DNA of 64,000 nt from NCBI GenBank assembly GCA_037481935.1, contig JBBFKQ010000002.1:62001-126000 (forward strand), given 5' to 3'. A program made the position numbers and the translations under genes. The notes beneath the pieces are model-generated. The model searched no databases and was not told where the DNA came from. It saw nothing but the letters and a program-made list of their open reading frames with translations. This document shows, piece after piece, positions 12,365 to 28,944 of this stretch. Numbering within the stretch: the first letter of the stretch is position 1; the number at the start of each line of letters is the position of its first letter. The stretch is from Aquificaceae bacterium (GTDB lineage Bacteria > Aquificota > Aquificia > Aquificales > Aquificaceae).

Positions 12365-12419
12365 CTTAACCAAATCTTAACCAAACCTTAAAGAAATCTT
12401 AACCTTTCTGCCCTATCCT
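12365..12419 (+). promoter_or_regulatory. Pho-box promoter A (four repeats) before the DUF2334 operon
   Basis: Four direct repeats with 4-nt spacers: CTTAACC (12365), CTTAACC (12376), CTTAAAG (12387), CTTAACC (12398). Then 9 nt and TATCCT (12414-12419), with the ATG 7 nt later. The 11-bp period and the repeats in place of a -35 element match the known layout of PhoB-activated promoters. The start codon falls where transcription should begin, so the mRNA may be leaderless. Confidence 0.8.
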
Positions 12420-12426
12420 TTTACCC

Positions 12427-13173
12427 ATGAAGCTCGCCATAGTGGAACTGCACGATGTGAGCCCCTACTACAGGGCTGAGTTTTTAGCCTCTCTTGAGCT
12501 TCTGGAGGAGGTGGGATTGCATAGATTTTCCCTCCTGGTGGTGCCCTACTTCTGGGAATGTGCACCTCTGGGAGGGGATATGGGCTTTTTAAGCCTTCTC
12601 AAAGGTCTTGATGCAGAGCTTTTGCTTCATGGCTATACGCACAGGGGCAGAAAGAGGCTTCAGCACATGCTCTGGACGGACGGGGAGGGAGAGTTTGGAG
12701 GGCTGGGACTGTCAGAAACCTATGAGAGGGTTCATGCAGGCCTGGAACTTATGGAACACTTTGGGCTAAAGACAAGGTTTTTCGTTCCGCCCGCTTGGAT
12801 AGGAAACCCATATCTTGAGGACGTGCTCTATTCTCTTGGCTTTATGGGTGTGGCTTACCGCTGGCACATAAAAGACCTGAAGGCAGAAAGGGCCATAAGG
12901 TCCCCGGTCCTCACCTTCAGCAACAGGCACCTTTTTTCCTGGCTCAGCCTGAAGGTTGTCCCAAACATTGAAAAGATTTACAGCAATCATGACCTTCTCA
13001 GGCTTGCACTCCATATGGCAGATTTTAGAGATGAAAGAAAGGTAAGACTGTGGAGGGATATACTCTGCAGGATAAAAAACAGCAGGAGGTTAACCAGCTA
13101 TGGGGAAATACTTGGCAAAGGCGGACCTTCACCTTCACTCAAAGGCCTCCAACCTGCCGGGGGGCTGGTTTAG
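12427..13173 (+). CDS. DUF2334 / polysaccharide deacetylase-like protein
   Basis: 248 residues, no signal peptide. It opens with LAIVELHDVSPYYRAEF, where the His-Asp resembles the metal-binding start of the NodB-like fold, and has LLHGYTHRG for the second metal motif. The DUF2334 family is assumed to be deacetylases of unknown substrate. It is the first gene of a Pho-box operon with two glycosyltransferases and PsiE, so a role in envelope glycolipid or polysaccharide remodelling under phosphate stress is inferred. Its 3' end overlaps the next gene by 74 nt. No Shine-Dalgarno precedes the ATG. Confidence 0.75.
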   Translation: MKLAIVELHDVSPYYRAEFLASLELLEEVGLHRFSLLVVPYFWECAPLGGDMGFLSLLKGLDAELLLHGYTHRGRKRLQHMLWTDGEGEFGGLGLSETYERVHAGLELMEHFGLKTRFFVPPAWIGNPYLEDVLYSLGFMGVAYRWHIKDLKAERAIRSPVLTFSNRHLFSWLSLKVVPNIEKIYSNHDLLRLALHMADFRDERKVRLWRDILCRIKNSRRLTSYGEILGKGGPSPSLKGLQPAGGLV

Positions 13174-15346
13174 CAGGCTCGTAGGATGCCCAGAGAGCTT
13201 TACAGAGCCTCTTGAGATATACAGAAGGCTAAAAGAGAGAGGCATGAGCTTTGTAACCATAACGGACCACAATACCGTAAGCGGAGTTCTTGAGATAGCT
13301 CACATGCCCGAGGTTTTCATAAGTTGCGAATATACGGTGGAGATACCTGAAGAAAGGGGTAAGGTGCACGTGCTGGTGTATGGCATTACAGAATCACAGC
13401 ATCAGGACCTTCTCAGGCTCAGAGAAAACATCTACGACTTTGTCCCTTATCTCAAGTCTTATAGAATAGCCCATTCACTTGCCCATCCCCTCTACTCTGT
13501 TCAGGGCACAAGGGTGAGCAGGAGTCTTGTGGAAAAGCTTGTGCTTCTCTTTGATAACTGGGAGGTGATAAACGGAACAAGGGGTGACGGAGTCAGATAC
13601 ATAGAGGAGACCATAGCCCGTGCTTACGATGGATGGGACAGAATACACTATCTGGCCGAAAGGCACAGAATTGAACCTCAGAGGACAAGAGAAAGAATAG
13701 CCTTTACCGCAGGCTCTGACGACCACGGTGGTATGGATGTGGGCAGAACATGGACAGGGGTTGAGGGGGCAACCACCAGAGAAGATTTCCTGAAAGGCCT
13801 ATGGGAGGGTAGAACGCAGGTGGGCACAGAAGAACTTGGCGATAAGAGGCTTCTAAATATGGTGTGTAGAGTTGGTTATGACTTTCTGAGGAGCAAAAAC
13901 CATATACCCTCTGAAGTAAAGCCTATTACCGACTACCTTTTTATGCATTCAGACAATCCAGTGGTAGGTATGCTTCTGAGGAATTTTTTAAGTATAAAGG
14001 CAGAAAGGGTGGACCTCCTGAGGGAGATAGCAAAAAAGCTGCCCTCTTTTACCTTAGAGAGATTTTTGAAAAGCCCCTCACCGCAAACCATCGGGGAGCT
14101 GTGCCTGTCCCTCATGGCTCATGGCTTCCCCGCCTTTTTAAAATACGCCCAGAGAAAAGAAGAGCAGAAGATAAAGGCTCTTGGAAAGGAGTTTGGAATA
14201 GTCAACGGAAAAACACCAAAGGTTGCCTACCTTACAGATACATACCACCACATAAACGGCGTTGCAAGAAGCAATAAGCTAATAAGAGAGATAGCTCTTG
14301 AAGAAGAACTGCCCTTTACTGTGGTTATATCCAGCTCGCAGGTTATGGAGGAGGAGAACCTGGTAAACCTCCAGCCCCTTTTTGAACTGCCCACGCCCTT
14401 CTATGAAGAGTTAAGGATGGGAGTGCCCAACCTCATAGAGTTCATGGACTTTCTTGAGAGGGAGGGCTTTACTCAGGTTCACATAGCCACACCCGGACCT
14501 CTGGGTCTTATGGGCCTTCTTCTGGGTAAGCTTCTTGGTCTAAGAGTAACCTTTGCCTTCCATACGGACATACCATCTTACGCAAAAACCTACACAGGAG
14601 ACTCAGAGTTGGAAGAAATGCTCTGGAAAGCCTTCCTTTTCCTCGGCAACATATCCGACAGGTTCTTTGTTCCCTCAGAACACTACAGAAAGATTTTTGT
14701 AAGCAGGGGGCTAAACTACGGCAAGATAAGCACCTTCAGGCGTGGCGTTGATACTGAGTTATTCTCCCCTGACAAGAAAAGCGACGACTTCTGGACCGAA
14801 AGGCTTGGAGTCAAAAGGCATCAGAAAGTTATCCTCTATGTAGGAAGAGTCTCAAAGGAAAAGGGTCTGGACAAATTCCTTTACGCAGCAAGATGCTTCC
14901 CTGAGGATGTTTTTGTGGTGGTGGGAGATGGTCCCTACAGGAAGGAGCTCGAAAACAAAAAGCCAAAAAACATGCACCTGGTGGGCTATATGGTGGGGGA
15001 AGAGCTTGCAAAAGCCTACGCAAGCTCTCATGTCTTTCTCTTCCCCTCTGAGACGGAGACCTATGGACAGGTGGTTCTGGAAGCGATGGCAAGCGGACTT
15101 CCAGTAATAGTTAGCTCAAGAGGTGCTTCTCACGAGCATGTGCAGGAAGGAGTGAACGGTTTTATAGCCACAAGGACAGAAGAATTCGTGGAAAAGCTCT
15201 CCCTTCTCATATCCAAAGAAGAAATGAGAAGAAACATGTCGCAGGAAGCCCTCTACTATGCAAAAAGCCTTGACATGAGAAAAACCTACATAGATTACAT
15301 GTTAGCCATAGCAGGTCTCGGGAGGCTTGTCCATGAAGCTTGTTGA
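13100..15346 (+). CDS. PHP-domain / GT4 glycosyltransferase fusion
   Basis: 748 residues. The N-terminal third is a PHP metallohydrolase-like domain (KADLHLHSKAS, TITDHNT, GSDDHGG). After a helical linker (~240-370) comes a GT-B fold glycosyltransferase of family 4 (~371-740) starting VAYLTDTYHHINGVARS, with ETYGQVVLEAMASGLPV near the donor site. The glycosyltransferase half resembles SqdX/SQD2-type lipid glycosyltransferases and mannosyltransferases. The ATG at 13100 lies inside the previous gene but has AGGAGGT 9 nt before it, which supports the long overlap. Likely a cytoplasmic-face enzyme; the acceptor is unknown. Confidence 0.85.
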   Translation: MGKYLAKADLHLHSKASNLPGGWFSRLVGCPESFTEPLEIYRRLKERGMSFVTITDHNTVSGVLEIAHMPEVFISCEYTVEIPEERGKVHVLVYGITESQHQDLLRLRENIYDFVPYLKSYRIAHSLAHPLYSVQGTRVSRSLVEKLVLLFDNWEVINGTRGDGVRYIEETIARAYDGWDRIHYLAERHRIEPQRTRERIAFTAGSDDHGGMDVGRTWTGVEGATTREDFLKGLWEGRTQVGTEELGDKRLLNMVCRVGYDFLRSKNHIPSEVKPITDYLFMHSDNPVVGMLLRNFLSIKAERVDLLREIAKKLPSFTLERFLKSPSPQTIGELCLSLMAHGFPAFLKYAQRKEEQKIKALGKEFGIVNGKTPKVAYLTDTYHHINGVARSNKLIREIALEEELPFTVVISSSQVMEEENLVNLQPLFELPTPFYEELRMGVPNLIEFMDFLEREGFTQVHIATPGPLGLMGLLLGKLLGLRVTFAFHTDIPSYAKTYTGDSELEEMLWKAFLFLGNISDRFFVPSEHYRKIFVSRGLNYGKISTFRRGVDTELFSPDKKSDDFWTERLGVKRHQKVILYVGRVSKEKGLDKFLYAARCFPEDVFVVVGDGPYRKELENKKPKNMHLVGYMVGEELAKAYASSHVFLFPSETETYGQVVLEAMASGLPVIVSSRGASHEHVQEGVNGFIATRTEEFVEKLSLLISKEEMRRNMSQEALYYAKSLDMRKTYIDYMLAIAGLGRLVHEAC

Positions 15347-16442
15347 TATAACACCTTATTTTCACAGCAGGAGCGGAGGCATAAGGAGGTATCTGCTTGA
15401 AAAAACAAAATATCTGCAGCAAAGGGGTGTGGAGCATGTGCTCATAGTTCCCGGCAGGGAGAGAAGAACATACTGCATAAATGCTACGAGAGTTTACGAA
15501 CTTCCCTCCTTCCCCCTCCCCCTCACTGGAGGTTACAGGTTCTTCTCCTCTTTCTCAGAGATAAGGGAGATACTGCAGAGGGAGGAGCCTGATGTGGTGG
15601 AGCTGGGCGGAACCTACCAGCCAGTAAACCATCTCAAGTCTGAAAGATACCTGCTGAGCGTTTTCTATCACTCTGACATAAGGACTGACCTGTCCCTGCT
15701 CCCTGCTCCGGAAAGGCTCAGAAAAGCCCTTCTGGAACATACCATAAAGAAGAAGCTCTCCAGGGCAGATATGATAATTACACCCTCAAGAGTGCAGGAA
15801 GAGTTTCTTAAGGCTTCGGGGCTTGAAAATGTGGTTACGGTAAACCTTGGAGTGGACACGGATGTGTTCAACCCGTCAAAGAGAGACCCATACTTTGACA
15901 GAGCTCTGGGCATAGGTGCGGGCAAGTTTAAACTACTATACTCTGGGAGGCTTTCACCGGACAAAAACGTAGACCTTCTTCTTGAAGTTTTCCAGCACCT
16001 TGACCCTACACTTTTCCACCTTGTTGTGGCGGGGGATGGTCCTGCAAGAAAAAAGGTGGAAAAACTCACCCAGAAGCTTCCTAACCTCACTTACTTGGGA
16101 TACCTTCACAGGGAGGAGGAACTTGCCAGGGTATATGCGAGCTGTGATGTTTTTGTGAGCACATCCTGCGGTGAAACCTATGGACTTGCCTTCCTTGAGG
16201 CTCAGGCATGTGGCTGTCTTCTGGTTGCCTTTGATATGGGTCTTGAAACCCAGCCCTTCAAAGAGTTTCTTGTGAGAGAGCCGACCCTGGAAGCCTTTTA
16301 CGACGCAATAATTCATGCATGCAATGCCTTAAGCCTTTCCAACAGAGAAAGGCTAAGCTCCTATGTTCAGAGGCACTTTTCATGGGAATCCACCTTTGAC
16401 AGGCTTCTCGGGGTTTACCGTGGAGTCCTTGCTCAGGTATAG
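15333..16442 (+). CDS. GT4 family glycosyltransferase
   Basis: 369 residues from the ATG 7 nt after GGGAGG (an in-frame TTG 6 nt earlier is less likely). GT-B fold: the N-terminal SRSGGIRRYLLE glycine-rich loop, then YSGRLSPDKNVDLLLEVF and the C-terminal ETYGLAFLEAQACG donor-binding motif. The start overlaps the PHP-GT gene by 14 nt. A second glycosyltransferase in the same Pho operon suggests two successive sugar additions. Lipid versus polysaccharide acceptor is not decidable from the sequence. Confidence 0.88.
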   Translation: MKLVDITPYFHSRSGGIRRYLLEKTKYLQQRGVEHVLIVPGRERRTYCINATRVYELPSFPLPLTGGYRFFSSFSEIREILQREEPDVVELGGTYQPVNHLKSERYLLSVFYHSDIRTDLSLLPAPERLRKALLEHTIKKKLSRADMIITPSRVQEEFLKASGLENVVTVNLGVDTDVFNPSKRDPYFDRALGIGAGKFKLLYSGRLSPDKNVDLLLEVFQHLDPTLFHLVVAGDGPARKKVEKLTQKLPNLTYLGYLHREEELARVYASCDVFVSTSCGETYGLAFLEAQACGCLLVAFDMGLETQPFKEFLVREPTLEAFYDAIIHACNALSLSNRERLSSYVQRHFSWESTFDRLLGVYRGVLAQV

Positions 16443-16866
16443 CCAGATAGTCAACCCCTCACTTGTGCTCTACTACAGCATAAGAGTTCTCACATACGGT
16501 GTTATATTCCTCGGGCTTTTTCTGCTTCTTGTGGAAATCTTCTCCATGGAGCTCAGCTTTGAAAATCTTGTCAAGAAACTCACAATAAGGATTCTTGAAC
16601 TCGTCATTCTTTATGAAATATTCAGGGCAGTGCTCGGCATATTTGAGTATCACAGGGTAAAACTTACTTTCCTTGTGGATGCCTCCATATCCTTCATGCT
16701 CAGAGAGCTTATCATAACGGTATACTCAGGAAAGCTTGATATTCATATGTCCATATCGATAGGTATCATAATGTTCATTCTGGCTCTTCTGAGGATAGTG
16801 GTAGTCAAATTTTCCCCCTCTTCAGAGACAAGGCAGGAAATACAAAAACCCTTAACAGAATCTTAA
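16420..16866 (+). CDS. PsiE-like phosphate-starvation-inducible membrane protein
   Basis: About 148 residues from a GTG at 16420; an ATG at 16363 would give 167 but overlaps the previous gene by 80 nt, so the start is uncertain. Four hydrophobic segments, with the pattern YSIRVLTYGVIFLGLFLLL, ILYEIFRAVLGIFEYHRV and LRELIITVYSG, as in E. coli PsiE. PsiE is a membrane protein of unknown function induced by phosphate starvation. Its position in an operon with a Pho-box promoter supports both assignments. Its stop codon lies inside a repeat of the next Pho promoter. Confidence 0.75.
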   Translation: MESLLRYSQIVNPSLVLYYSIRVLTYGVIFLGLFLLLVEIFSMELSFENLVKKLTIRILELVILYEIFRAVLGIFEYHRVKLTFLVDASISFMLRELIITVYSGKLDIHMSISIGIIMFILALLRIVVVKFSPSSETRQEIQKPLTES

Positions 16867-16883
16867 CAATTCTCGGTTAAACT
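16851..16883 (+). promoter_or_regulatory. Pho-box promoter B before the 68-residue gene
   Basis: CTTAACA (16851), GAAT, CTTAACA (16862), 9 nt, TAAACT (16878-16883), then 7 nt to the ATG at 16891. The second repeat contains the TAA stop of the PsiE-like gene. The gene after it has no ribosome site and is probably leaderless. Confidence 0.78.
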
Positions 16884-16890
16884 ATTCAGC

Positions 16891-17097
16891 ATGAAGGAGA
16901 GGATTGATAGCCTCATTCAGGAGATTGAGAGGGAGAAGGACTGCTACAGAAGGTTTCTGAGGAAAGGGGAGAGGCTCAGGAAGCGAGAAAGAGACACCTT
17001 CCTCACCGAAAAGGATAGAACCATACTGATAGAGTCCTTTGTGGTGGGTGGGCTTCTGGAAAACCTTATAACAAAGGCAGTAAACAGACTCTTTTAG
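16891..17097 (+). CDS. Small charged helical protein, Pho-box controlled
   Basis: 68 residues, not recognised. The first ~48 residues are very rich in Lys, Arg and Glu and look like a coiled coil (IQEIEREKDCYRRFLRKGER); the tail (IESFVVGGLLENLITKAVNR) is amphipathic. It has its own Pho-box promoter 7 nt away and overlaps the convergent SCP2-like gene by 4 nt at the 3' end. The dedicated promoter argues that it is a real gene. Confidence 0.6.
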   Translation: MKERIDSLIQEIEREKDCYRRFLRKGERLRKRERDTFLTEKDRTILIESFVVGGLLENLITKAVNRLF

Positions 17098-17447
17098 AGG
17101 AGCCTCTGAAGAGTGGACAGAACCTTCTGATAGTCCCCCCTTATCCTCACTCTACCTTCAAAGATGTAGCGTAATATTCTTGAGGGTTTTTCCACGAGCC
17201 TGAGCAGGTCTCTGTAGCTAATGCTTATCACATGTCTTGCCTCTGATATTCCAGAGCTATAACGTATGCCCTCAGAGCTTATCAGAAAGTTAGCCTTTCC
17301 CGCTTCTGGGAGCTCAACTTCAAGTAAGAGTGGCTCCTGTATGTTTTTTAAAAATTCCCCGTGTGTTTCTTGAATATGATGGGCAAGGAGCTTGAGCTCC
17401 CTTACATAATCCTCAGTATTCGCTTTCAATGTGTATGACCCTTTCAT
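17094..17447 (-). CDS. SCP2-like domain protein
   Basis: 117 residues from the ATG with AGGAGG 10 nt upstream; a longer frame reaches 17516 but lacks a better start. The C-terminal half (ISISYRDLLRLVEKP...IFEGRVRIRGDYQKVLSTLQRL) has the pattern of the SCP2 lipid-binding fold: a hydrophobic strand, an acceptor helix and the GR(V/L)RIKGD turn. It is the last gene of the P-type ATPase operon. Lipid or hydrophobic ligand binding is inferred from the fold only. Confidence 0.6.
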   Translation of the reverse strand: MKGSYTLKANTEDYVRELKLLAHHIQETHGEFLKNIQEPLLLEVELPEAGKANFLISSEGIRYSSGISEARHVISISYRDLLRLVEKPSRILRYIFEGRVRIRGDYQKVLSTLQRLL

Positions 17448-17670
17448 CCTGAGAGAGCCTCCTGATGATATCCTCAAGAATGTCAAAAGCCCTTTCCTCT
17501 GTGGAGTATATGCCAAGAACGGCGGGGAGGAGAGGCTGGCTCATGTAAGCAACCACCTTGTAAACCAGCCTCTTCTTACCCTCTATCTCTATCTTTGCCT
17601 CCTCCACCGAAAGGGAAATGACATGGAGGGTGTTCAGATACCTTCCACTTCTTGTCCTTATAAAGTTCAT
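17413..17670 (-). CDS. Uncharacterised 85-residue protein
   Basis: Not recognised. Predicted mixed alpha/beta: it begins NFIRTRSGRYLNTLHVISLSV and ends with a helix bearing ERAFDILEDIIRRL. No cysteine motif or membrane segment. It overlaps both neighbours (4 nt with the coiled-coil gene, 35 nt with the SCP2-like gene), so it is translated as part of the ATPase operon. Confidence 0.6.
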   Translation of the reverse strand: MNFIRTRSGRYLNTLHVISLSVEEAKIEIEGKKRLVYKVVAYMSQPLLPAVLGIYSTEERAFDILEDIIRRLSQDERVIHIESEY

Positions 17671-17942
17671 CCTTCCTCTTTTTTCTCCTCTTCTTTTAGG
17701 GCTTTTTTGGCTCCTTCCACGGCACCCTCAACGGAATACCTCACAACCTTGAGAGCCTTTTCTCCTATCTCCGCCGTGGTTTTGACTATTTCCTTGCTGA
17801 TATCCATAACCTTTGATAGAGCTTCAGCAGGAAGGTCTTTGAGGCTCTTTTCTTCCTCTGCCACTCCCATTTTCTTCTTGAGCTCTTCAAGCTCTGCCTT
17901 GATTCTCTCAAGCTCCTGAGCAAGGTCCCTCTTTTCTTCCAT
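17667..17942 (-). CDS. Coiled-coil / amphipathic helix protein
   Basis: 91 residues, almost entirely helical: a coiled coil at ~5-27 (LAQELERIKAELEELKKK) then an alanine/valine/glycine-rich amphipathic helix and a Lys/Glu tail. No catalytic motif. It has a strong AAGGAGGT ribosome site and follows the P-type ATPase gene by 6 nt. It resembles the small helical companions found beside some P-type ATPases; its function is unknown. Confidence 0.65.
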   Translation of the reverse strand: MEEKRDLAQELERIKAELEELKKKMGVAEEEKSLKDLPAEALSKVMDISKEIVKTTAEIGEKALKVVRYSVEGAVEGAKKALKEEEKKEEG

Positions 17943-17948
17943 GGCTTT

Positions 17949-20033
17949 TCACCTCCTTTGGGGTTTTTGTAATGAATATATACCCAACAGCACGGTAGTG
18001 CCGTTGTTTATGAGGGTTGAAACAGATGGCCCGATAAGCCCCAGGGCTGAGCCTATCAGACCTATAGTATTTATAAGGCCGTTAAGCCTGTATGTGGTTT
18101 TGAGCTTCTTTACGGTGTGCTCCGCAATGTCCACCACATCCACCAGGTGCCAGAGGCTATCCCCGATGACGATGTCCGCCACCTCTATGGCTATGTCGGT
18201 TCCGCTCCTGAGGGAAATGCCCACGTCTGAGGAGGAAAGGGCTGGTGAATCGTTTACACCATCACCAACAAAGGCCACCACCCTTCCCTGTTTTTTAAGC
18301 TTTTCCACAACCTTTGCCTTCTCTGCAGGGAAAACCCTTGCGTAAAATTCTTCCAGACCAAGCTCCTTTGCCATATATCTGGCTATACCTTCGTTGTCCC
18401 CAGTGCAAAGTATGACCTTCTTACCCCTCTTTCTGAGCTCAGCAACCACATCCTTTGCCTCTTCTCTGAGTGGGTCTCTGAAGGTGAGAAGACCAACTAT
18501 TTTCCTTTCCCTCACAAGATAGAGAACGGACTTCGCCTCGGAGTGAAACTTATCCACAAGGTCTCTAACTTCCTGACTTATCCTTATCCTCTTCCTTTGC
18601 ATAAAACGGGTGCTTCCCAGCATGAACTTTGTTCCATTCAGCTCACCCTCTATACCCAGTCCTATGTGATACTGGGAGTTTTCTCTTGGGACAAGTTCCA
18701 GCCCCCTATCCTCTGCCAGCTTCACTATCGCCCTTGCCACCGGATGGGTTATCCTCTGTTCAAGGGAGGCGGCGTATCTGAGGGTTTCTTCTTCAGAAAT
18801 CTCAAGCCCCACCACATCCTCAACCACTGGATGCCCCACCGTTAGTGTTCCCGTCTTGTCCATGACAAAGGTGTCAACCCTTGAGAGGGCTTCCAGCTTT
18901 CCACCGCTCTTTATGAGTATGCCGTAAGTGGAGGCCTGTGCCACACTGGATAGCACCGTAAGAGGCGTTGTAAGATGAATACCCGTGTGGTAGTCTATGA
19001 TAAGTGTGGAGGTGAGCCTTCCCACCTGACCGCTGAGAAGGTAAGACAGCGTGCCAAGGCCAACGGTCGGCATCACAAGCCTGTTGGCGGTCTCTTCTGC
19101 CATCTTCTGTATGTTTATGGGCTCTTTTATGCTCTCCTCCACGATTTTTGCGATTTTTGCCACCACCGTTTCTTCTCCCACCTCTTCTACCCTTACGTAA
19201 AGTTTACCATCTTCAACGAAGGTGCCCGCAAAAACCTTATCGCCCACCTTTTTGTGAACCGGGTTTGACTCTCCCGTCAGGGATGCCTGGTTTACGAGAG
19301 CATCCCCTTCCTCCACTACACCGTCTGCAGGAATCTTTTCCCCGGCGTAGACAGCTATCAGGTCGCCCTTTTTAAGGTCAAGGGCCTTTATCTTTATAAC
19401 CTGACCATTGCCTATAAGGAGCCATGCAGTATCCTCCTTGTAGGAGAAGAGCTTTTCAATCTTTTCATAAGCCTTTTTCTCTACCCTTTCGGAGAGGTAA
19501 TCGCCAAGAGCCAGCAGGAATACCATGGTATGTGCAGAAAGTGGGTTCCCTGTGAGGCTTGCCAGCACTATGGCTGAGGAATCAAGAAAGTGAACATCAA
19601 GCTTTCTTCCTCTGAGGGAGCTTATAGCCTTTTCAAATATGGGCTTTGAGAGGAGCAGGGTCATGCCTGCGAGAAGTGGACCGGGAATTACGCCCCTCAG
19701 GAGGTATGGCAGAAAACCAGCGGTGCTCAGCATTAGCCAGCGAGATGTCCCCGTATCTTTCTTGTGAACACTCGCCCTTTCCCTTGAGAGGTCTTCAAGG
19801 AAAACATCCCTTGGTGTGTTCTCAATGTGGCTGAGAAACTCTATGAGGTCAAAGCTCTGAGGGTCATATTCAAGAATTAGTCTTCCTGAAGTTCTTGAGT
19901 AGCTTACCTTCCTTACGCCCCCAAACCTTGAAAAATAAGACTTGAGCGTTTCATCTGGATGGTGTAAATACTGAAAGAGGTATGATGTGAGCCTGAGCCT
20001 TCCAGGAGAGAGCCTTTCTACCCTGTAGGTCAT
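17949..20033 (-). CDS. P1B-like heavy-metal P-type ATPase with atypical membrane motif
   Basis: 694 residues. N-terminal domain (~1-80) resembles a degenerate heavy-metal-associated fold without CXXC. Actuator motif TGES at 253-256, phosphorylation motif DKTGT at 392-396, the HP locus THPVARAI near 429 (a P1B trait), and GDGVNDSPAL near the end. In the transmembrane helix where P1B pumps carry CPC, this protein reads IDYHTGIHLTTP (347-351 DYHTG), so Cys-Pro-Cys is absent. Ion and direction are therefore unknown. It is the fourth gene of a Pho-box operon; a role in ion balance under phosphate limitation is inferred. Confidence 0.85.
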   Translation of the reverse strand: MTYRVERLSPGRLRLTSYLFQYLHHPDETLKSYFSRFGGVRKVSYSRTSGRLILEYDPQSFDLIEFLSHIENTPRDVFLEDLSRERASVHKKDTGTSRWLMLSTAGFLPYLLRGVIPGPLLAGMTLLLSKPIFEKAISSLRGRKLDVHFLDSSAIVLASLTGNPLSAHTMVFLLALGDYLSERVEKKAYEKIEKLFSYKEDTAWLLIGNGQVIKIKALDLKKGDLIAVYAGEKIPADGVVEEGDALVNQASLTGESNPVHKKVGDKVFAGTFVEDGKLYVRVEEVGEETVVAKIAKIVEESIKEPINIQKMAEETANRLVMPTVGLGTLSYLLSGQVGRLTSTLIIDYHTGIHLTTPLTVLSSVAQASTYGILIKSGGKLEALSRVDTFVMDKTGTLTVGHPVVEDVVGLEISEEETLRYAASLEQRITHPVARAIVKLAEDRGLELVPRENSQYHIGLGIEGELNGTKFMLGSTRFMQRKRIRISQEVRDLVDKFHSEAKSVLYLVRERKIVGLLTFRDPLREEAKDVVAELRKRGKKVILCTGDNEGIARYMAKELGLEEFYARVFPAEKAKVVEKLKKQGRVVAFVGDGVNDSPALSSSDVGISLRSGTDIAIEVADIVIGDSLWHLVDVVDIAEHTVKKLKTTYRLNGLINTIGLIGSALGLIGPSVSTLINNGTTVLLGIYSLQKPQRR

Positions 20034-20233
20034 TCTGTTTTGCTCTCCTGCTGAAGCTTGAGCTCAAGGGCTTTCACCATTGCCTCAATCTCTCTCTGGG
20101 TCTCTTCCAGCCTTCTCTTTTCCTTTGCCCTGTCAAGCATGTAGAAGGCAAGCACCCCAAGACCAAAGCCAAGGGCAAAACTGAAAGGACCTGAACATAC
20201 TGCCTTTCCAAGTAGTGAAGTTATGTTGTTCAT
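20030..20233 (-). CDS. Small membrane-anchored coiled-coil protein
   Basis: 67 residues: one transmembrane helix near the N-terminus (FSFALGFGLGVLAFYML) followed by a charged coiled coil (KEKRRLEETQREIEAMVKAL). GAGGAGGTG ribosome site; overlaps the ATPase start by 4 nt. With the 104-residue protein upstream it forms a pair of single-span helical proteins that may associate with the pump. No family assigned. Confidence 0.65.
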   Translation of the reverse strand: MNNITSLLGKAVCSGPFSFALGFGLGVLAFYMLDRAKEKRRLEETQREIEAMVKALELKLQQESKTE

Positions 20234-20245
20234 GTTTTCACCTCC

Positions 20246-20560
20246 TCACAGTCTTTCCTTTATTCTCTGCAGAATTTCTTGCTGTTTCTGGAGAACTTCA
20301 AGCTTTTTCTCCACCTCAAGCCTGTAGAGGTGCTTAGCTTCAGATACCACATCTTCCCAGAACTCCTTTCCTTCCTCAAGATTTCCCGTGAGCCACTGCT
20401 GGAAGGCTATGACCTCCTTGGTGGTGGATACAAGGAAAGGTCTTGCGTCTCTCATGAGCCTACTGAGGACCACAAGCCCTGCAATGGCACCAAAGCCATA
20501 AAGCATCATGTTGGTTGAAAGGCACCCACCTATGGTGCTTGGAATGCTGACGTTAAACAT
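20246..20560 (-). CDS. Membrane-anchored helical protein (possibly DUF5132-like)
   Basis: 104 residues: one hydrophobic helix (MMLYGFGAIAGLVVLSRLM), then a long cytoplasmic helical region ending in EKKLEVLQKQQEILQRIKER. AAGGAGGT ribosome site before the ATG at 20560. Small proteins of this shape accompany P-type ATPases with DYxTG-type motifs in my recollection, but I cannot confirm the family without a search. Confidence 0.6.
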   Translation of the reverse strand: MFNVSIPSTIGGCLSTNMMLYGFGAIAGLVVLSRLMRDARPFLVSTTKEVIAFQQWLTGNLEEGKEFWEDVVSEAKHLYRLEVEKKLEVLQKQQEILQRIKERL

Positions 20561-20571
20561 GCCTTACCTCC

Positions 20572-20946
20572 TTATAGCTTATTCTTTAAATATGGTATAA
20601 GAAACATACTGCAGACTGCAAAGGAAATAAGCCCCACATTCCACCCAAGAAGAGCCATGCTAAAGCCCAGCTTTACTGCAGGATGTTTCAAAAAGGGCTG
20701 AATATAAAAATGCAGGTCTTCCCTTTCCAGCTTCTGGGGTGCTCTGCCACCCTTGAGGTTTTCAATGATGTAGTGGAAAAAACTCCCTTCTCTGAACTTC
20801 ACAAGAAGCGTTCTTGTGTTTTCTTTGTATTCAACCCCCTCAACCCCCTCCACCCCGTTCATGCCACGCAGAAACAGGTCCCTCTCTGCAACACTTGAGA
20901 AGTAAAGCCTTGCTTCACCTCTTCTGAGGGACACATATTCTATCAT
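20572..20946 (-). CDS. HMA_2-like domain protein with C-terminal membrane helix
   Basis: 124 residues. The N-terminal ~65 resemble a ferredoxin-like heavy-metal-associated fold lacking CXXC (GEARLYFSSVAERDLFLRGM... LLVKFREGSFFHYIIENL), similar in plan to the N-terminus of the P-type ATPase downstream. The tail holds hydrophobic stretches (LGFSMALLGWNVGLISFAVC). A repeat GVEGVEGVE lies in the first loop. First gene of the Pho-box ATPase operon; the -10 TATAAT is 8 nt from the ATG and there is no Shine-Dalgarno, so probably leaderless. Confidence 0.65.
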   Translation of the reverse strand: MIEYVSLRRGEARLYFSSVAERDLFLRGMNGVEGVEGVEYKENTRTLLVKFREGSFFHYIIENLKGGRAPQKLEREDLHFYIQPFLKHPAVKLGFSMALLGWNVGLISFAVCSMFLIPYLKNKL

Positions 20947-20954: not shown

Positions 20955-20987
20955 ATTATAAAGTAGGATTGTTAAGATTTGGTTAAG
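20955..20987 (-). promoter_or_regulatory. Pho-box promoter C of the P-type ATPase operon
   Basis: Read on the minus strand: CTTAACC (20987-20981), AAAT, CTTAACA (20976-20970), 9 nt, TATAAT (20960-20955), 8 nt, ATG. The first repeat contains the TAA stop of the CZB-like gene upstream. Confidence 0.8.
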
Positions 20988-21378
20988 GATAGCGGACCTC
21001 TTCGAGACCTTTTAGCATACGCTCCAGTTTCATCAGGAGATGATAAAGGGTCAGGGATGTATCCTGCATCTGCTTTACAAGGTTTTCATCGGGTTCCTTC
21101 GTGTTTATGTTCTTCCCTATCTCGTGAAACCTGCAGTGAACCTCTTCTATCTGAAGCAGCACATCCCTTATATGTTGGGGAAATTCATCTATTCTAGGCA
21201 TTACGTCTCTGTAGAAGGTCTGCCCAAAGGCACAGCAGTTCTCTTTTGTATCCCTGCAACACTCCTTATGGTTAAAGTCTTTTCTATTTTCTATGGCCCT
21301 CTTAAGCCTCTTCAGATAAAGCTCATGCTGTGCCAGATAAAACCTCACATCTATCACAGTGCTCGCTCCAGCCCGCAT
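20983..21378 (-). CDS. CZB-like zinc-binding domain protein
   Basis: 131 residues from the ATG at 21378; the frame stays open to 21450. Conserved-looking His/Cys pattern: AQHELYLKRL near the start, a central CCAFGQTFYRDV and VHCRFHEIGK, which matches the chemoreceptor zinc-binding (CZB) layout H...C-x-(F/L)-G...H-x-x-(F/V)-H. CZB domains sense zinc, redox or chlorine species, usually within chemoreceptors or diguanylate cyclases; here the domain stands alone. A minus-strand TATAAT at 21387-21382 lies only 3 nt from this ATG, so the true start could be slightly downstream. Its stop lies in Pho promoter C. Confidence 0.65.
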   Translation of the reverse strand: MRAGASTVIDVRFYLAQHELYLKRLKRAIENRKDFNHKECCRDTKENCCAFGQTFYRDVMPRIDEFPQHIRDVLLQIEEVHCRFHEIGKNINTKEPDENLVKQMQDTSLTLYHLLMKLERMLKGLEEVRYP

Positions 21379-21402
21379 TAAATTATAACAAACAAGCAGT
21401 GT

Positions 21403-21408
21403 TAAAAT
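21403..21408 (+). promoter_or_regulatory. Putative -10 of thrB, leaderless spacing
   Basis: TAAAAT 7 nt before the thrB ATG with no ribosome site between. No convincing -35 at 16-18 nt. The spacing equals that of other suspected leaderless genes in the window. Confidence 0.35.
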
Positions 21409-21415
21409 TTTCTGC

Positions 21416-22315: not shown

Positions 22316-22976
22316 TGTGGGGAACACATCGGTGGACGCCTGCCTTTTTGAGGGCACTCTCTCCTACCTTGGAAAGTTTAGACATACAGACCTTCCCAGA
22401 GTTGAAGCGGACATGGTGCTCGTGTCCTCTGTCAGACCTTCTGCCAATGCCCTTGTGAAAGAAGTCTATCCGGAGGCAAAGTTCATAAAGGCGGAGCATG
22501 TGCCCGTCAGGACTGCCTTTGAGGGAAAGGAAAGGGTGGGCGTTGACAGGCTTCTCAACCTCTTTGGTGCTGTAAGGCTATACGGTGAAAACGTGGTGGT
22601 CGCCAGCCTTGGGACTGCTCTTGTGGTTGACCTTGCGGTGGATGGCGTCTTTCAGGGTGGCTTTATAACCCTCGGGATTGGCTCTGGGCTTGAGTGCCTG
22701 TCCCAAAGGGCAGAGCTAATACCACCTCTGACCTTCAAAAGGGTTCACCCAGACATAGGCACGGATACGGAAAGCGCCATCCTTGGAGGCTTCATAAAGC
22801 AGAGCATGCACTTTTTGAGGGGATGCCTCAGCGAATGGCAGGAGCTTTATGGCAGAAGCCTCAGGCTGGTGATAACGGGTGGCGATGGCTGGCTTTTTGA
22901 GGAAGTGGGCGTTTACGACCCCCTTCTCATTCACAGGGCTATGCTTCTTCTCTATAGCCCTTTACAAACTCTATAG
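22296..22976 (+). CDS. coaX: Type III pantothenate kinase
   Basis: 226 residues from a TTG inside the end of thrB; no ATG fits the N-terminal family motif [15 protein letters not shown]. CoaX phosphorylates pantothenate in CoA biosynthesis and belongs to the ASKHA fold. The second motif, VGVDRLLN, and the glycine-rich [10 protein letters not shown] and [12 protein letters not shown] follow in order. Slightly short for the family (~250). Its 3' end overlaps the convergent nucleotidyltransferase by 38 nt. Confidence 0.92.
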
Positions 22977-24456
22977 CCTCCTCCTTTGTCCTTACCCTCC
23001 CATCCAGCTGTGCCTCCTCGAGAGCCTTCTTTATCCTCCCGACCTGTGGTCCCGGCTCAATGCCCAGAAGCTCCATTATCTCCCTGCCGTCAAGGAGAGC
23101 TTTTACTGGCATCCTTGAGAGTCTGACTCTTCTGAAGCTTACAAGGTCATGGATTGTCTCAAGAAGTCTCTTTATTTCCACCTCCTCATCACCGCTCCCG
23201 AGGGCGTCCGCAATGGCGTGAAGGAAAAGGTGGGGTGCTATATCTCCACACTCTCTCCAGAAGTTTGCCCTTCCTCTATCGGTGAGCTGACCCTTAAAGA
23301 GAGACTCTCTTAGGTAGAAGGGTCTGAGGTGTTCCCTTACAAGCTTTGCTACAAACTCTGTGGCATGTTCCCCCCACCTGTAGGTTTTCCCGTATTCTCT
23401 TACCATGTCCGCACCCAGCTTATCGTGGTTGTAGAAGGTGACCTTGCCCTCTCTCACCTCAAAGGTATGGGGCTTTGCAAGGTCATGAAAGAGGGCTGAA
23501 AGCTTGAGAAGCTCAAGGTCAGAAAACTCACCGAGCACCTCCATCCTTCCAAAGTCCTCAAGAAGCTCTGCAGGCAGATACCTGTCCCGTTCTTCTATAA
23601 CCCTCTCCAAGAACTCCAGCACCTTAAAGACATGCTCCTCAAGGGGATAAACATGATGCTCACCCTGGTCCTTTACCTCCTTCCAGCGGGCTGTGTCTGG
23701 AAAAAGCGTCTGCAGGACGCCGTGCGCGTATAGCTCCCTGAGAACTCTGTAGCTGCCGGAAGCTCTCAGAACCTTAAAGAGCTCAAGGGTAATCCTCTCC
23801 GCCGGAGCCCTCCTGAGCAGATGCCCCTTTTCCCTCACAAAGCGGTAAAAATCCTCCGTGAGCTCCAGCCCTTTTTCTACCGCAAGGCGAAAGCCCCTGA
23901 GGATCCTGACCGGGTCTTCTTCGAGGTTTTTCAGAAATACGGGTCTCAAAAGCCCTCGCTCCAGGTCCTCCACGCCATGGGCGGGGTCGTAAATCAGAGT
24001 TTGCTTTGCTCCAATGCTGAGCACATCGTCAATACTCACTGCCATGGCGTTGGCGGTAAAGTCCCTCGAGAGCAGGTCTTCCACCAGAGCCTTCTCCACA
24101 TCTCTACCCTTTATCTGGGCAAAGTCAAACCTGTATTTGTAGGGACCAAGCCTGAGAACCACAGTCGCTATGGTGGGTCTCTTTATGAAGAGCCCCTTCT
24201 TCTCAAACTCAAAGTAAGAACCGCCTATTCTCTCCGCCAGCCTTTTTGCGGTCTCTCTGGGGTCGCAGGTCACAAGAAGGTCCACATCTATATGGTATCC
24301 CACAGACTCTCCCAGAAGCCTGTCTCTAACCCACCCACCCACTATAAAACAGAGTGCTTCCCTTGGAAGAACCCTTGCAATATCGTCAAAGTAAGTCATG
24401 TAAAAGTTGAGCCCGTGGGCTGTGTGTTTTATGCCCTTCTCAAAGAGGACATCCAT
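22939..24456 (-). CDS. tRNA nucleotidyltransferase (CCA-type) with HD domain
   Basis: 505 residues. Class II polymerase-beta fold head: [10 protein letters not shown] and the catalytic pair in HIDVDLLV, then the [10 protein letters not shown] motif and neck/body ([19 protein letters not shown]). A C-terminal HD domain ([21 protein letters not shown]) is present. In Aquifex the CCA end is built by two separate enzymes, one adding CC and one adding A; the length here is close to the shorter of the two, but which activity this protein has cannot be read from sequence alone. The fMet tRNA in this window lacks an encoded CCA, so the function is needed. Confidence 0.88.
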
Positions 24457-24482
24457 GGGACTTAAATATATGCAGTCTTCTT

Positions 24483-24515
24483 CTTAACGAAAACTTAACA
24501 CTCTGGGGGTAAACT
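24483..24515 (+). promoter_or_regulatory. Pho-box promoter D of the GTPase/EAL-GGDEF operon
   Basis: CTTAACG (24483), AAAA, CTTAACA (24494), 9 nt, TAAACT (24510-24515). A 21-nt stretch with AAAGGAGGA precedes the ATG at 24537, so this mRNA has a short normal leader. Confidence 0.8.
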
Positions 24516-24536
24516 CATAGACAAAGGAGGAAAGCC

Positions 24537-25043
24537 ATGGAGCTTTTCAAAAATCCTCAGGGACTTCTGGAAATTGTGACGGAGCAGGTGGGTCTTATCG
24601 GTGGGGAGATGGCCGGAAAAACCTTCCGCAGGCTTGTGGAAGAGCTCAATGGGACAGACCCGCTCGTAGCCATAGAGAGAAGCATCTCATACATCTTTGA
24701 CCGGGCTGGAAGCGTGCTTATGGGACATATAGGCAGGAGGGTTGCCCTTGAATCTCAGGCTCTTCACAACTTCTTCGGGCTTCCTACCAATGACTACAGG
24801 CTCAGCATGGAACTGAAATATCCCATAATTGACACTTTGAAAAACAATGGTATAGAGCCCACGAGAGGAATGCTGTGCTCTCTCTGCAAAGGTTACATGC
24901 AGGGGACTGCAGAAAGGATAAACCTTGGCAATCTCAGGGAGGTAGTTCACAGGGAGGGCGTATGCCAGTTTTTCTTTGGAGGTGAAGAAAATGGACCTGC
25001 TGGACTACAGCCTGAGCCAGCAAGAGCTGGAGGAAATAACTAA
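24537..25043 (+). CDS. V4R-like domain protein
   Basis: 168 residues. The second half resembles a V4R/4VR small-molecule-binding domain: CSLCKGYMQGTAERIN followed by VVHREGVCQFFFGG, with three cysteines spaced as in V4R proteins that bind metal or hydrocarbons. The first half is helical. First gene of a six-gene operon ahead of pst; as such it is a candidate sensor for the roadblock/GTPase pair. Assignment is by eye and moderate. It overlaps the roadblock gene by 53 nt. Confidence 0.6.
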   Translation: MELFKNPQGLLEIVTEQVGLIGGEMAGKTFRRLVEELNGTDPLVAIERSISYIFDRAGSVLMGHIGRRVALESQALHNFFGLPTNDYRLSMELKYPIIDTLKNNGIEPTRGMLCSLCKGYMQGTAERINLGNLREVVHREGVCQFFFGGEENGPAGLQPEPARAGGNN

Positions 25044-25440
25044 TAGGCTTCAGGATTTTAAAAACTCCCTTTTTCTTGAGCTTGTGGTGCTTATGGACGA
25101 TGGGGGGAGGCTTGTGAGCTATGCACCCTACGTGGATACTCTAAAACCCATGGTTCAGCGGGTCGCCATCGTAGGTGCGGCGGTTGTGGGTGCGGTGGAC
25201 CAGCTTGAGCATGTGATATCTTCCAAGAGAAACATGTATTTCTCTGGAGTAGACAAGAACATGTATGTGCACGTGATAGACCAAAAGTTTCTGCTTGCAT
25301 CGGTCTTTAATCATAAGGTTCCTCTCGGAAGCGTCAAGCTCATGAAAGAAAGACTGTCAAGAGAGATAGGGGAAATACTTAAAAGGGCGAGAAGCAGAAA
25401 CCAGAAAAAGGTGGTAAGGTTTGAGGACCTTGCTATATGA
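24991..25440 (+). CDS. Roadblock/LC7 domain protein
   Basis: 149 residues from the ATG preceded by TGGAGGTGAA; an in-frame TTG 15 nt earlier overlaps the ribosome site and is not the start. The roadblock core is ELVVLMDDGGRLVSYAPY, then a helix and KNMYVHVIDQKFLLASVF. Such proteins (MglB-like) act as GTPase-activating or scaffold partners of small GTPases, and an MglA-like GTPase follows with a 4-nt overlap. The last ~25 residues are basic. Confidence 0.82.
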   Translation: MDLLDYSLSQQELEEITNRLQDFKNSLFLELVVLMDDGGRLVSYAPYVDTLKPMVQRVAIVGAAVVGAVDQLEHVISSKRNMYFSGVDKNMYVHVIDQKFLLASVFNHKVPLGSVKLMKERLSREIGEILKRARSRNQKKVVRFEDLAI

Positions 25441-25967
25441 ACCTGCGCATACTTTACCACGGACTTGGTATGGCGGGCAAAACCACAAACCTTGAAAAGC
25501 TCAGGGAAATATATGCCTCCTTTGTAAATGACAGGCTTCATCAGCAGACCACCGAAGGCAGGACCGTTTACCTTGACATACTCGCTCTTAACCTCAAAAC
25601 AAAGACAGGTAATGAAGAGGTAGAGGTGAGCCTTTTCACCACTCCAGGACAGGAAAGGTTCAAAATTCTCAGAAAGTGGATATTTGGACATGTGGATGGG
25701 CTTGTGATGGTGTTAGATTCCTCCAGAAGTCTTGAGGAGAATCTCAAGGCTTACCAGGAGCTGGAAGAATACGGACTTACTTCCCTGCCGGTAGTGGTTC
25801 AGGCGAACAAGCGGGATGCAGACAACCCCATTCCTATGGAAGAAATATCAAGGGCCTTTGACGGCCTTAAAGTGCTGGAAGCGATTGCGAAGGATGGGCT
25901 GGGTGTTGCAGAGACTTTCAGGGCAATTATCAGGGAGGTTCTCCATGCAAAGGCTCATGCTGGCTGA
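25437..25967 (+). CDS. MglA-like small Ras-family GTPase
   Basis: 176 residues. G1 is GLGMAGKTTN, G3 is TTPGQERF and G4 is NKRD (QANKRDAD); the aspartate of the usual DxxG is replaced by TPGQ as in MglA and Arf/Gtr-related bacterial GTPases. MglA proteins with roadblock partners set cell polarity and motility in Myxococcus and Thermus. Here the pair sits in a Pho-box operon with an EAL-GGDEF protein. Polarity or motility output under phosphate stress is an inference. Confidence 0.88.
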   Translation: MNLRILYHGLGMAGKTTNLEKLREIYASFVNDRLHQQTTEGRTVYLDILALNLKTKTGNEEVEVSLFTTPGQERFKILRKWIFGHVDGLVMVLDSSRSLEENLKAYQELEEYGLTSLPVVVQANKRDADNPIPMEEISRAFDGLKVLEAIAKDGLGVAETFRAIIREVLHAKAHAG

Positions 25968-26733
25968 GCTAAGCCTCAAGCTCAGGCCTCTTTATGGACC
26001 CTTTCACAGGGACATGGTGAACGTCTCATGGCTCACGGAAACGGTTAGCAGTTCTCTCAGGTCAGGCTACTTTATGCTTCAGAGTCTGGAAGGACTTGAG
26101 TTCGTTCCAGTGCTTGAAGGAAGGTTAAAAGGTGCTCTGTCAGAAGAATTTGAGCTTATTAGCTTTTACTCCACACTTGAAAACTTCGTTGTGCATGCTT
26201 TTGAACTTTACGAGAAGTATCGTCTTCCACTTTACAGCGACAGACCCCTCTGGGTGAACTTAGAGAGCATAAACTTCAACATAAGGGAGTTTTTTAAAAA
26301 ACTTCAAGATTTTGAGGTCACAGGCTTTATGCTGGTGGACAACAGGGTAAAGCTCATAAGGGGAACACTGCTTTTGCAGAAAGGCTTGGTGGTGGGAGCC
26401 CATTACGCAGAAGAAAGTGGCAGGAACGCTCTCGTAAAGATTATTGAGGACCTCGGCAAAGACATGTGCTCCATGAAGGTGTATGAGATACCCGAGGAGC
26501 TACTTTCCTTTCTCTTACTTGACTGTGAACTTGCCGGTCTGTATCAGAGCTTTGAAGACGTGCCTTTCAAAAGCCTTTCTGGAACTGCTATTGTGGTAAG
26601 CGTATCGCCTGAAAAGTATGGATACCTTATTTTCTCTCAGGGTGAGGAGGTTTTCAGCGAAGGCTTTGAAGAAGACGCACCTTTTATGAGCTTTTGCTAC
26701 CTTCAGGAGTTGTGGCATCCGTGGAACCCATGA
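25945..26733 (+). CDS. Uncharacterised protein of the GTPase operon
   Basis: 262 residues from the ATG after GGGAGGTT (a longer frame to 25816 lies inside the GTPase gene). No family recognised with confidence. The middle (INFNIREFFKKLQDFEVTG... GTLLLQKGLVVGAHY) resembles DUF4388-like modules in which a short helix precedes a beta hairpin, and which occur beside MglA and response regulators. It overlaps the GTPase gene by 23 nt and the next gene by 4 nt (ATGA). Confidence 0.65.
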   Translation: MQRLMLAELSLKLRPLYGPFHRDMVNVSWLTETVSSSLRSGYFMLQSLEGLEFVPVLEGRLKGALSEEFELISFYSTLENFVVHAFELYEKYRLPLYSDRPLWVNLESINFNIREFFKKLQDFEVTGFMLVDNRVKLIRGTLLLQKGLVVGAHYAEESGRNALVKIIEDLGKDMCSMKVYEIPEELLSFLLLDCELAGLYQSFEDVPFKSLSGTAIVVSVSPEKYGYLIFSQGEEVFSEGFEEDAPFMSFCYLQELWHPWNP

Positions 26734-27182
26734 ACCCTCTTGAATTTATTCCCGATGACAGAAGTTTAAGGATAGTAAAGTATGACCCAGAACATCCCAT
26801 ACTCTACTTCTGCCCAGCCTGCTGGAGCACCGTTTCAAAGGACGATAAAGTGTGTCCTAACTGCGGATATGACCTTACAGAGTTCCATCAGCTTCCATAC
26901 GAATACAAGCTCATAATGGCCCTTGAACATCCAGTGAAGGACATGAAAAAGAACGTTATATACACAGTGGGAAGAAAAGACTTAGAGCTTGCCCTGCCTC
27001 ACTTTGAGCTGATGGTAAACAGGGAAACAGACCCCATAATACTTATGGAGATTGCGGACGCTCTTTCGAGGATGAGCTCGCCAGAAGCCACAAACCTCCT
27101 GAGAAAACTGGCGCAGCACCGCTACCCTGTGGTGCGTTCAAGGGCTATCATGCACCTTCAGAAGAGAATCAGCGATGTATAA
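26730..27182 (+). CDS. Zinc-ribbon / HEAT-repeat protein
   Basis: 150 residues. A double CXXC zinc ribbon (FCPACWSTVSKDDKVCPNCGYDL, cysteines near 28, 31, 42 and 45) is followed by two or three HEAT-like helical pairs (TDPIILMEIADALSRM, EATNLLRKLAQHRYPVVRSRA). Start chosen from the 4-nt ATGA overlap; the ribosome site is weak. Probably a protein-interaction adaptor in the GTPase/c-di-GMP operon. Confidence 0.72.
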   Translation: MNPLEFIPDDRSLRIVKYDPEHPILYFCPACWSTVSKDDKVCPNCGYDLTEFHQLPYEYKLIMALEHPVKDMKKNVIYTVGRKDLELALPHFELMVNRETDPIILMEIADALSRMSSPEATNLLRKLAQHRYPVVRSRAIMHLQKRISDV

Positions 27183-28941
27183 CACTGGGTTAAAATCCCT
27201 TGTAAAAAGGGAGTTTCTTGAAAGAATAAAGATAAAGCCCCATTATCAGCCCATAGTAGACTTGAGTTCGGGAGACATACACGGCTACGAGGCACTGAGC
27301 AGGTTTGAGCTGGATGGGAAGAACTTTAGTCCATTGAAAATCTTCAGCATGGCTAAGGATATTGACGCAGCATCGGAGCTTGACCTTATGTGCAGGAAAG
27401 TTGCCCTTGAAAACTTTCCAAGGGACCTGAAGGGCAAACTCTTCCTGAATGTATACCCATCCTATCTTGTGTCTGAATACATGGGGAAGGGGCACACCAT
27501 GAGCTATGTGCTTGAGTCTGGCTTTAATCCCCGCAGCGTAGTCCTAGAACTCACAGAAGCAGAAAAGGTGCAGGATATGAGGCTTTTAAAGGGTGCCCTA
27601 AGCCACTACAAGGATATGGGCTTTCATGTTGGCATAGACGACATAGGCACGGGCTTTAACTCCCTTGAACACCTCTTAAACCTTGAGGGGCTACTAGACT
27701 ACGTAAAGCTTCCGAGGGAGCTTATAAATGGCGTTTCAAGAAGCAAAATAAGACATAGTCTTATAAAGGTTCTTACGGAGGTGTCCCTCAGTATAGGTGC
27801 AAGGCCCATATACGAGGGGCTCGAAAAGCAAGAAGACCTTCTTGTGCTCTGTCAGGACTTTGACGCCCACCTCTTTCAGGGTTTCTACTTCTCATTACCC
27901 CTTTCTCCAGAAGATTTGAGAAACTTCAAGCTGGAGGCGAGACTGTGTCTGTGTTCTCAGGATAAGGGTCTGCACGGCGTAGACTTGCGTATCCTCCATG
28001 TTAAAGGTGAGGAGAAGTTTGGCTCATTTCTGGAAAGAGTAGAAGAGTTTCAGGACAGGTATACTCTTCTGGATATGGATGGAAACTTATACCTTCTTGA
28101 CCTGTGGAAGTTAAAAAGCCAGCTTAACCACATAAAAAGGAACCTTTATTACTACAGGAACATCAGAGAAGCTACAGGTCTTATGAAGGAGGTCTTTGTG
28201 AGCGTTGAAAACCTACCAGAGGTAGACACGAGCAATTCTAACTTAAGGAACCTCTTTGACCTGGTTACCTCCTCAGACTGGGAGGTTTTTGTCCTTGGAA
28301 AGGGGAATGGTGCTCTGAGGGTGATTGAAAAGCATAACCTTATAGACTACCTTCACAGGAAGCTCACAAAGGAACTTCTTGAGAGCAACCCCCTAACCCA
28401 ACTGCCAGGAAACAGGTCTATAGAGGAGACCATAAAAAGACTGGGAAATTCTGGCTATGACTTCTATGTCTGTTATCTTGACATAGACAACTTTAAAGCC
28501 TTTAACGACGCCTACGGTTTTTATGCGGGGGACCAGATGATAAAAAAGGTGGGCTTTCTGCTCAAAAACTTTGAGAGCGAGAACGTTGGCAGGGTCTTTG
28601 TAGGGCATGTAGGAGGAGATGACTTTGTCCTTATACTCTGGGATACTGCCCTGGAGGATGTAAAAGGCAAACTATTTGAGCTATTAAAGAACCTGAAGGC
28701 GAACCTCCTTGAGTTTTACAGTCCTGAAGACATACAGAGAGGCTACTTTATGGCAAGGAGCAGGGAGGAGGAAATAAGAGAGTTTCCCCTGGCGGATGTT
28801 TCCATGGTGCTCGTGAAGGGCTCTCCTGACCCACTGGACATATCCAGAAGGTCTGCTCAGCTCAAGAAGAAAGCAAAGTCTGTAAGAGGCAGTGTGCTTG
28901 TGGTGGAGGGTCTTAACGAAATCTTAACAATTGACCTGTAA
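27175..28941 (+). CDS. EAL-GGDEF c-di-GMP signalling protein
   Basis: 588 residues with the unusual order EAL first (~10-250), GGDEF last (~410-570). EAL side: GYEALSRF, NVYPSYL, VLELTEAE, DDIGTGFNS, all motifs close to those of active phosphodiesterases. GGDEF side: the signature is GGDDF in HVGGDDFVLIL, with DIDNFKAFND before it, so cyclase activity is plausible but uncertain. A linker (~265-400) has no obvious domain. No membrane segments. It closes the Pho-box D operon, and its last nine codons and stop double as the pstS promoter. Confidence 0.88.
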   Translation: MYNTGLKSLVKREFLERIKIKPHYQPIVDLSSGDIHGYEALSRFELDGKNFSPLKIFSMAKDIDAASELDLMCRKVALENFPRDLKGKLFLNVYPSYLVSEYMGKGHTMSYVLESGFNPRSVVLELTEAEKVQDMRLLKGALSHYKDMGFHVGIDDIGTGFNSLEHLLNLEGLLDYVKLPRELINGVSRSKIRHSLIKVLTEVSLSIGARPIYEGLEKQEDLLVLCQDFDAHLFQGFYFSLPLSPEDLRNFKLEARLCLCSQDKGLHGVDLRILHVKGEEKFGSFLERVEEFQDRYTLLDMDGNLYLLDLWKLKSQLNHIKRNLYYYRNIREATGLMKEVFVSVENLPEVDTSNSNLRNLFDLVTSSDWEVFVLGKGNGALRVIEKHNLIDYLHRKLTKELLESNPLTQLPGNRSIEETIKRLGNSGYDFYVCYLDIDNFKAFNDAYGFYAGDQMIKKVGFLLKNFESENVGRVFVGHVGGDDFVLILWDTALEDVKGKLFELLKNLKANLLEFYSPEDIQRGYFMARSREEEIREFPLADVSMVLVKGSPDPLDISRRSAQLKKKAKSVRGSVLVVEGLNEILTIDL

Positions 28942-28944
28942 ACT
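28912..28944 (+). promoter_or_regulatory. Pho-box promoter E of pstSCAB
   Basis: CTTAACG (28912), AAAT, CTTAACA (28923), 9 nt, TAAACT (28939-28944), whose TAA is the stop codon of the EAL-GGDEF gene. pstS has a 29-nt gap with AAGGAGGT. As pst is a classic PhoB target, this site anchors the interpretation of the other four. Confidence 0.85.

Follow-up and report, generated by a model that had tools for sequence, protein, structure and literature searches.

Five promoters in one stretch of an Aquificaceae genome, each built on CTTAAC direct repeats with an 11-bp period, are very probably the operators and promoters of this bacterium's phosphate (Pho) regulon. The same box stands before genes for phosphate uptake, for phosphate scavenging, and for less expected functions, so these genes are very probably switched on together at low phosphate. 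This yields a testable phosphate regulon for the phylum Aquificota; in the literature searched, we found no description of Pho boxes or a Pho regulon in Aquificales or Aquificota, nor of this gene set in the lineage.

The window, that is, the whole stretch analysed, is C2:62001-126000 (64 kb) of a 1.69-Mb, 26-contig Aquificaceae bacterium assembly. Its PstS is 86-93% identical to those of MAGs labelled Aquificaceae, which supports this placement. PstS proteins 78-80% identical are found in MAGs labelled Calescibacterium and Caldimicrobium (L067, L080), pointing to possible gene transfer or mislabelled bins. In addition, RFFP01000014.1 (L066), labelled Acidobacteria MAG J001, probably bears a wrong label, since its length of 72,291 equals that of contig C22 of G009, a genome placed in this Aquificaceae genus.

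Five sites and the architecture of the box

The window was scanned with CTTAAC-N5-CTTAAC-N10-TANNNT, which is the same pattern as the CTTAACN-N4-CTTAACN-N9-TANNNT proposed from the sequence-only reading. At two mismatches or fewer, it gave 7 matches against 0.14 expected, a number reached in 0 of 100 shuffles. The sites are as follows:

12365-12419, plus strand: site A; repeats CTTAACC (12365), CTTAACC (12376), CTTAAAG (12387), and CTTAACC (12398), then N9 and the -10 hexamer TATCCT (12414-12419), 7 nt from the ATG at 12427
16851-16883, plus strand: site B; two repeats, -10 TAAACT (16878-16883), 7 nt from the ATG at 16891
20955-20987, minus strand: site C; two repeats, -10 TATAAT (20960-20955), 8 nt from the ATG at 20946
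24483-24515, plus strand: site D; two repeats, -10 TAAACT (24510-24515), 21-nt leader with a Shine-Dalgarno sequence, ATG at 24537
28912-28944, plus strand: site E, overlapping the 3' end of the EAL-GGDEF gene; two repeats, -10 TAAACT (28939-28944), 29-nt leader with a Shine-Dalgarno sequence, ATG at 28974

The pattern scan and a reading of the DNA place all five sites where the sequence-only reading had put them, and the -10 hexamers, their distances, and the repeat numbers (four at site A, two at each other site) are as it described. Its repeat consensus, CTTAAC(A/C/G), fails at the third repeat of site A, which is CTTAAAG. Sites B, C, D, and E are perfect matches; site A matches at 12387-12419 with one mismatch and has its additional repeat pair upstream, from 12365, in register. 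Most site A orthologs keep the four repeats, and most likewise carry CTTAAAG as the third.

A further perfect match, at 47327-47295 on the minus strand and absent from that earlier list, was rejected as a Pho box. It lies antisense to the ribosome-binding site and start of an iscU-like gene (GTTAAGGAGGTGTTAAGATG), and, being the reverse complement of the iscU ribosome-binding site, it recurs across the genus for that reason.

Footprint statistics are biased, the sites having been found with the pattern, and do not serve as our main evidence. A scan of ten genomes for CTTAAC-N(0-22)-CTTAAC was made without any -10 requirement. Among 112 pairs, 69 had the 11-bp period and 13 a spacing of 22 bp, with every other spacing seen 1-6 times. 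Once ribosome-binding-site matches and pairs with further boxes were taken out, 42 terminal 11-bp pairs remained, and in 39 of them TANNNT began exactly 10 nt after CTTAAC, against 8 at the runner-up offset. The fixed N9 claimed before the -10 hexamer is thus borne out, and it is not an artefact of the search pattern.

The number of repeats per terminal site (n=157) was two in 133, four in 23, and three in 1, the four-repeat form being typical of operon A and of several PhoX genes. What distinguishes PhoB-type operators is found here: tandem 11-bp direct repeats, at least two per operator, and a box that stands where a -35 element would, with a constant gap of about 10 bp before TANNNT.

Sites elsewhere in the genome and in relatives

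In the whole genome, at two mismatches or fewer, the pattern gave 17 matches and the reversed pattern 1. Outside the window, sites precede these genes:

C11:16554: phoU, then a HAMP-HisKA-HATPase kinase
C2:46844-46876 and 46822-46854: four-repeat operator of a PhoX phosphatase (PF05787, 481.7 bits)
C1:41264: PhoD phosphatase (PF09423, 264.7 bits)
C1:184507: low-molecular-weight phosphatase-family protein
C2:215631: DUF302 protein
C1:211019: 214-aa secreted protein, no function assigned

The prediction that genome-wide hits would cluster at phosphate genes was confirmed, with phoU-kinase, phoX, phoD, and pst all among them and the count far above the control rate. Two sites with two mismatches each, C5:105500 (before a P-type ATPase) and C1:236277, were left out, as no counterpart with one mismatch or fewer was seen in relatives. 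On C11, a molybdate-type ABC transporter cluster, so judged from its protein sequences, ends just upstream of the phoU Pho box (L023:4360-6559).

Relatives were scanned at one mismatch or fewer, again with the reversed pattern as control. The 14 genomes of the same genus, our own included, hold 6-11 sites each (6-10 in the 13 others) against 0-1 in the control, which sums over the table to 114 sites against 2. Other genera of Aquificaceae gave 61 sites against 0, and other families of the order 19 against 3. Within the fetched regions, 112 of 161 distinct sites lie directly before orthologs of the targets in our genome. The sites recur, mostly before the same genes, in the 13 genus-mates and less densely in other genera; this is the conservation that the sequence-only reading had made a test of its claim.

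Could the boxes be no more than chance AT-rich repeats near the promoters of a compact genome? CTTAAC is AT-rich, and the perfect match at 47295, over a ribosome-binding site, is indeed fortuitous. However, the reversed pattern finds 0-1 sites per genome where the true pattern finds 6-11, and the same orthologs are hit repeatedly despite diverged spacers and leaders. Together with the scan free of any -10 requirement, the genome counts and the relatives' counts refute this explanation, to which we attach almost no probability.

In other genera, sites stand before pstS and phoU as well as before genes for a phosphonate-binding protein, a phosphodiesterase, and an OprP-type porin. Non-orthologous targets are phosphate-like too and comprise an OprP-type porin, a type I phosphodiesterase, a PhnD-like binding protein, another PstS, a phosphoesterase inside a boxed TonB-system cluster, and TonB receptors. 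By site position, pst transport, phoU, and secreted phosphatases are all preceded by the box. Such recurrence before phosphate genes, genome-wide and in relatives, supports the phosphate-regulon reading.

Counting against this reading, no sites at one mismatch or fewer were present in G024, G026, G031, and G028, family genomes that each have a PhoB relative. A degenerate TTAAC pattern, applied to site-less genera and other families of the order, stayed at or near control in most and was higher in G026 and G053.

Two families of small proteins were also seen behind Pho boxes. One, of about 60 aa (MKVL.VKDRK.AK+LT.RLLKKGLVVA) and with no function assigned, occurs in several genera (L167:2245-2427, L184:2112-2285, and L185:2237-2428, all on the minus strand; also L257, L263, L275, and L278), and a member precedes a PhoB-type regulator in G025. 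The other, a secreted protein of 73-83 aa (AGTNHPALDTLLE..), is encoded immediately behind the box (L155:6761 on, L191, L198, L201, L253, L279) and is followed by a second PstS type where this was read (L155, L191, L198, L201).

Probable target operons, candidate regulator, and proposed mechanism

Behind the five sites lie the following genes:

12427-16866, plus strand: operon A; DUF2334 (12427-13173), PHP domain-glycosyltransferase (13100-15346), GT4 glycosyltransferase (15327-16442), PsiE-like (16363-16866)
16891-17097, plus strand: 68-aa protein behind site B, no function assigned; Pho target in 12 sampled sites
17094-20946, minus strand: operon C; 124-aa, 104-aa, and 67-aa proteins, heavy-metal-type P-type ATPase (17949-20033), 91-aa, 85-aa, and SCP2-like 140-aa proteins
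24537-28941, plus strand: operon D; 168-aa protein, MglB/roadblock-like (24976-25440), Ras-like GTPase (25437-25967), 305-aa protein, Zn-ribbon/HEAT (26694-27182), EAL-GGDEF (27175-28941)
28974-32656, plus strand: operon E; pstS (28974-29978), pstC (29975-30898), pstA (30900-31844), pstB (31838-32656)

Operon E scores 304 bits with TIGR02136, over the cut-off, and has PBP_like_2 and BPD_transp_1 domains; the names pstA and pstB rest on position and sequence. The PsiE gene named in the sequence-only reading does match its family over the cut-off, by the tiny margin of 24.0 against 23.9 bits, and is a marginal assignment. Two operon A proteins are homologs of the GlcNAc-phosphatidylglycerol synthase and deacetylase (NF053787/NF053788), but at 200.2 against 480 and 94.1 against 280 bits both fall below the curated cut-off and were rejected as members. 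The PHP-glycosyltransferase is close to glycolipid synthases, and operon A is probably devoted to membrane-glycolipid synthesis or membrane lipid remodelling.

The P-type ATPase of operon C is over its cut-off (TIGR01525, 481.9 bits), and in genus g11 a P-type ATPase cluster of similar arrangement stands behind boxed sites. For the 168-aa protein of operon D, the predicted structure is of low confidence (mean pLDDT 65.3) and gave no significant fold match. In the literature searched, we found no description of Roadblock/MglA in Pho regulons.

Start codons follow the end of the -10 hexamer in a bimodal way, either at 7-8 nt or, behind an AGGAGG leader, at about 18-32 nt. The first class holds the genes behind sites A (DUF2334), B (68-aa protein), and C (124-aa protein), together with PhoD and the phosphatase-family gene; the second holds operon D, the 214-aa gene, pstS, and phoU, and PhoX falls in either depending on the genome. 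DUF2334 family genes keep the 7-nt distance at 10 of 17 sites. A TANNNT about 12 bp before the start codon is an accepted sign of leaderless genes, reported in Aquifex aeolicus (PMC3160421). Since the 7-8 nt distance is kept in orthologs, the mRNAs of A, B, and C are predicted to be leaderless.

The search for a regulator compared four full-length OmpR-type proteins of the genome. The one at C8:43532-44194, which carries the helix DRTVDVHIKKLREKL, has the top PhoB-model score (235.6 bits, against a TIGR02154 curated cut-off of 296.2) and no adjoining kinase. The kinase behind phoU has no adjoining regulator and a weak PhoR likeness (51.9 against a cut-off of 334). These two are likely the PhoB-PhoR pair, judged by elimination: both are orphans, and each of the other three regulators precedes a kinase of its own. 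Relatives of the candidate adjoin a kinase gene and a pstS with a Pho box in G018 and G033 and lie near a boxed porin-like gene in G015; in G025, a 57-aa gene and the gene of a PhoB-type regulator share an operon headed by a Pho box. No box was found in the 600 bp upstream of the phoB candidate.

The repeats might instead be the operator of another OmpR-family regulator, answering for example to envelope or metal stress, under which the phosphate genes happen to fall together with the P-type ATPase and glycolipid operon A. Two of the three further regulators are about 40% identical to the candidate, and a heavy-metal-type ATPase is among the targets. Yet the genes targeted in the various genera make up the phosphate set (pst, phoU, PhoX, PhoD, OprP, PhnD, phosphodiesterase), the remaining three regulators have adjoining kinases, and only the candidate's relatives adjoin pst. 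We regard this alternative as improbable.

A phosphate regulon under the C8:43532 regulator would work as follows. At low phosphate, the orphan kinase behind phoU would phosphorylate the orphan PhoB-type regulator, dimers of which would occupy the 11-bp CTTAACA-N4 repeats in a head-to-tail arrangement. Bound PhoB would then recruit RNA polymerase in place of a -35 element, at the -10 hexamer 9 nt downstream. Switched on would be pst uptake, phoU-kinase (a feedback), and the PhoX and PhoD phosphatases, alongside operons A (membrane glycolipid), C (P-type ATPase), and D (small-GTPase/c-di-GMP) and small genes with no function assigned. Four-repeat operators (A, PhoX) may respond more strongly or cooperatively.

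It is also conceivable, although we think it unlikely, that the regulon is real and operons A to D are not all members, some sites being bound without regulation or acting on one neighbour. Other bacteria have documented cases of non-productive Pho boxes (PMC4415409), and sites with two mismatches, such as C5:105500, are unseen among the relatives' sites with one or fewer. Against this, each of sites A to D turns up in many genomes, its spacing conserved, and in genus g7 the roadblock-GTPase genes stand under their own box, away from pst.

Full membership would put the 68-aa, 124-aa, roadblock-GTPase-EAL/GGDEF, and DUF2334-PHP-glycosyltransferase families under predicted phosphate control and give a handle on their function. 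More tentatively, and with slightly less than even confidence, we suggest that the phosphate regulator drives operons D and C directly, wiring phosphate hunger to cell polarity or surface behaviour and to metal supply, and that part of the regulon is leaderless and so bypasses Shine-Dalgarno initiation.

Comparison with known phosphate systems

The PhoP-PhoR regulon of Bacillus subtilis uses TTAACA repeats, and so shares the TTAACA core and the 11-bp period. In the Escherichia coli phoA promoter, the 7-mer is followed by N10; the E. coli box is CTGTCAT, and its -10 lies about one base farther than the N9 seen here. Likeness to the E. coli PhoB regulon extends to tandem 11-bp direct repeats upstream of a TANNNT -10, a PhoB-type regulator, and pst/phoU (PMC4415409, PMC1906773). 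Leaderless promoters with TANNNT about 12 bp before the start (PMC3160421) are similar to our 7-8 nt class, which differs in the addition of an activator box.

PHO boxes in general are 11-bp direct repeats whose letters are species-specific (PMC4415409), and the cyanobacterial SphR box is CTTAACCT (PMC1906773). By its match to both, the Aquificaceae box is, at the level of sequence, of an already known Pho-box type. The cyanobacterial SphS-SphR regulon shares the CTTAAC core and the 11-bp period, and it drives pst and phosphatases (PMC1906773). Its operators require at least three repeats (PMC1906773), whereas those of Aquificaceae have two in 133 of 157 terminal sites, with the -10 distance fixed at 9 nt. 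A CTTAAC-type Pho box, cyanobacterial-like, would thus be in use in Aquificota.
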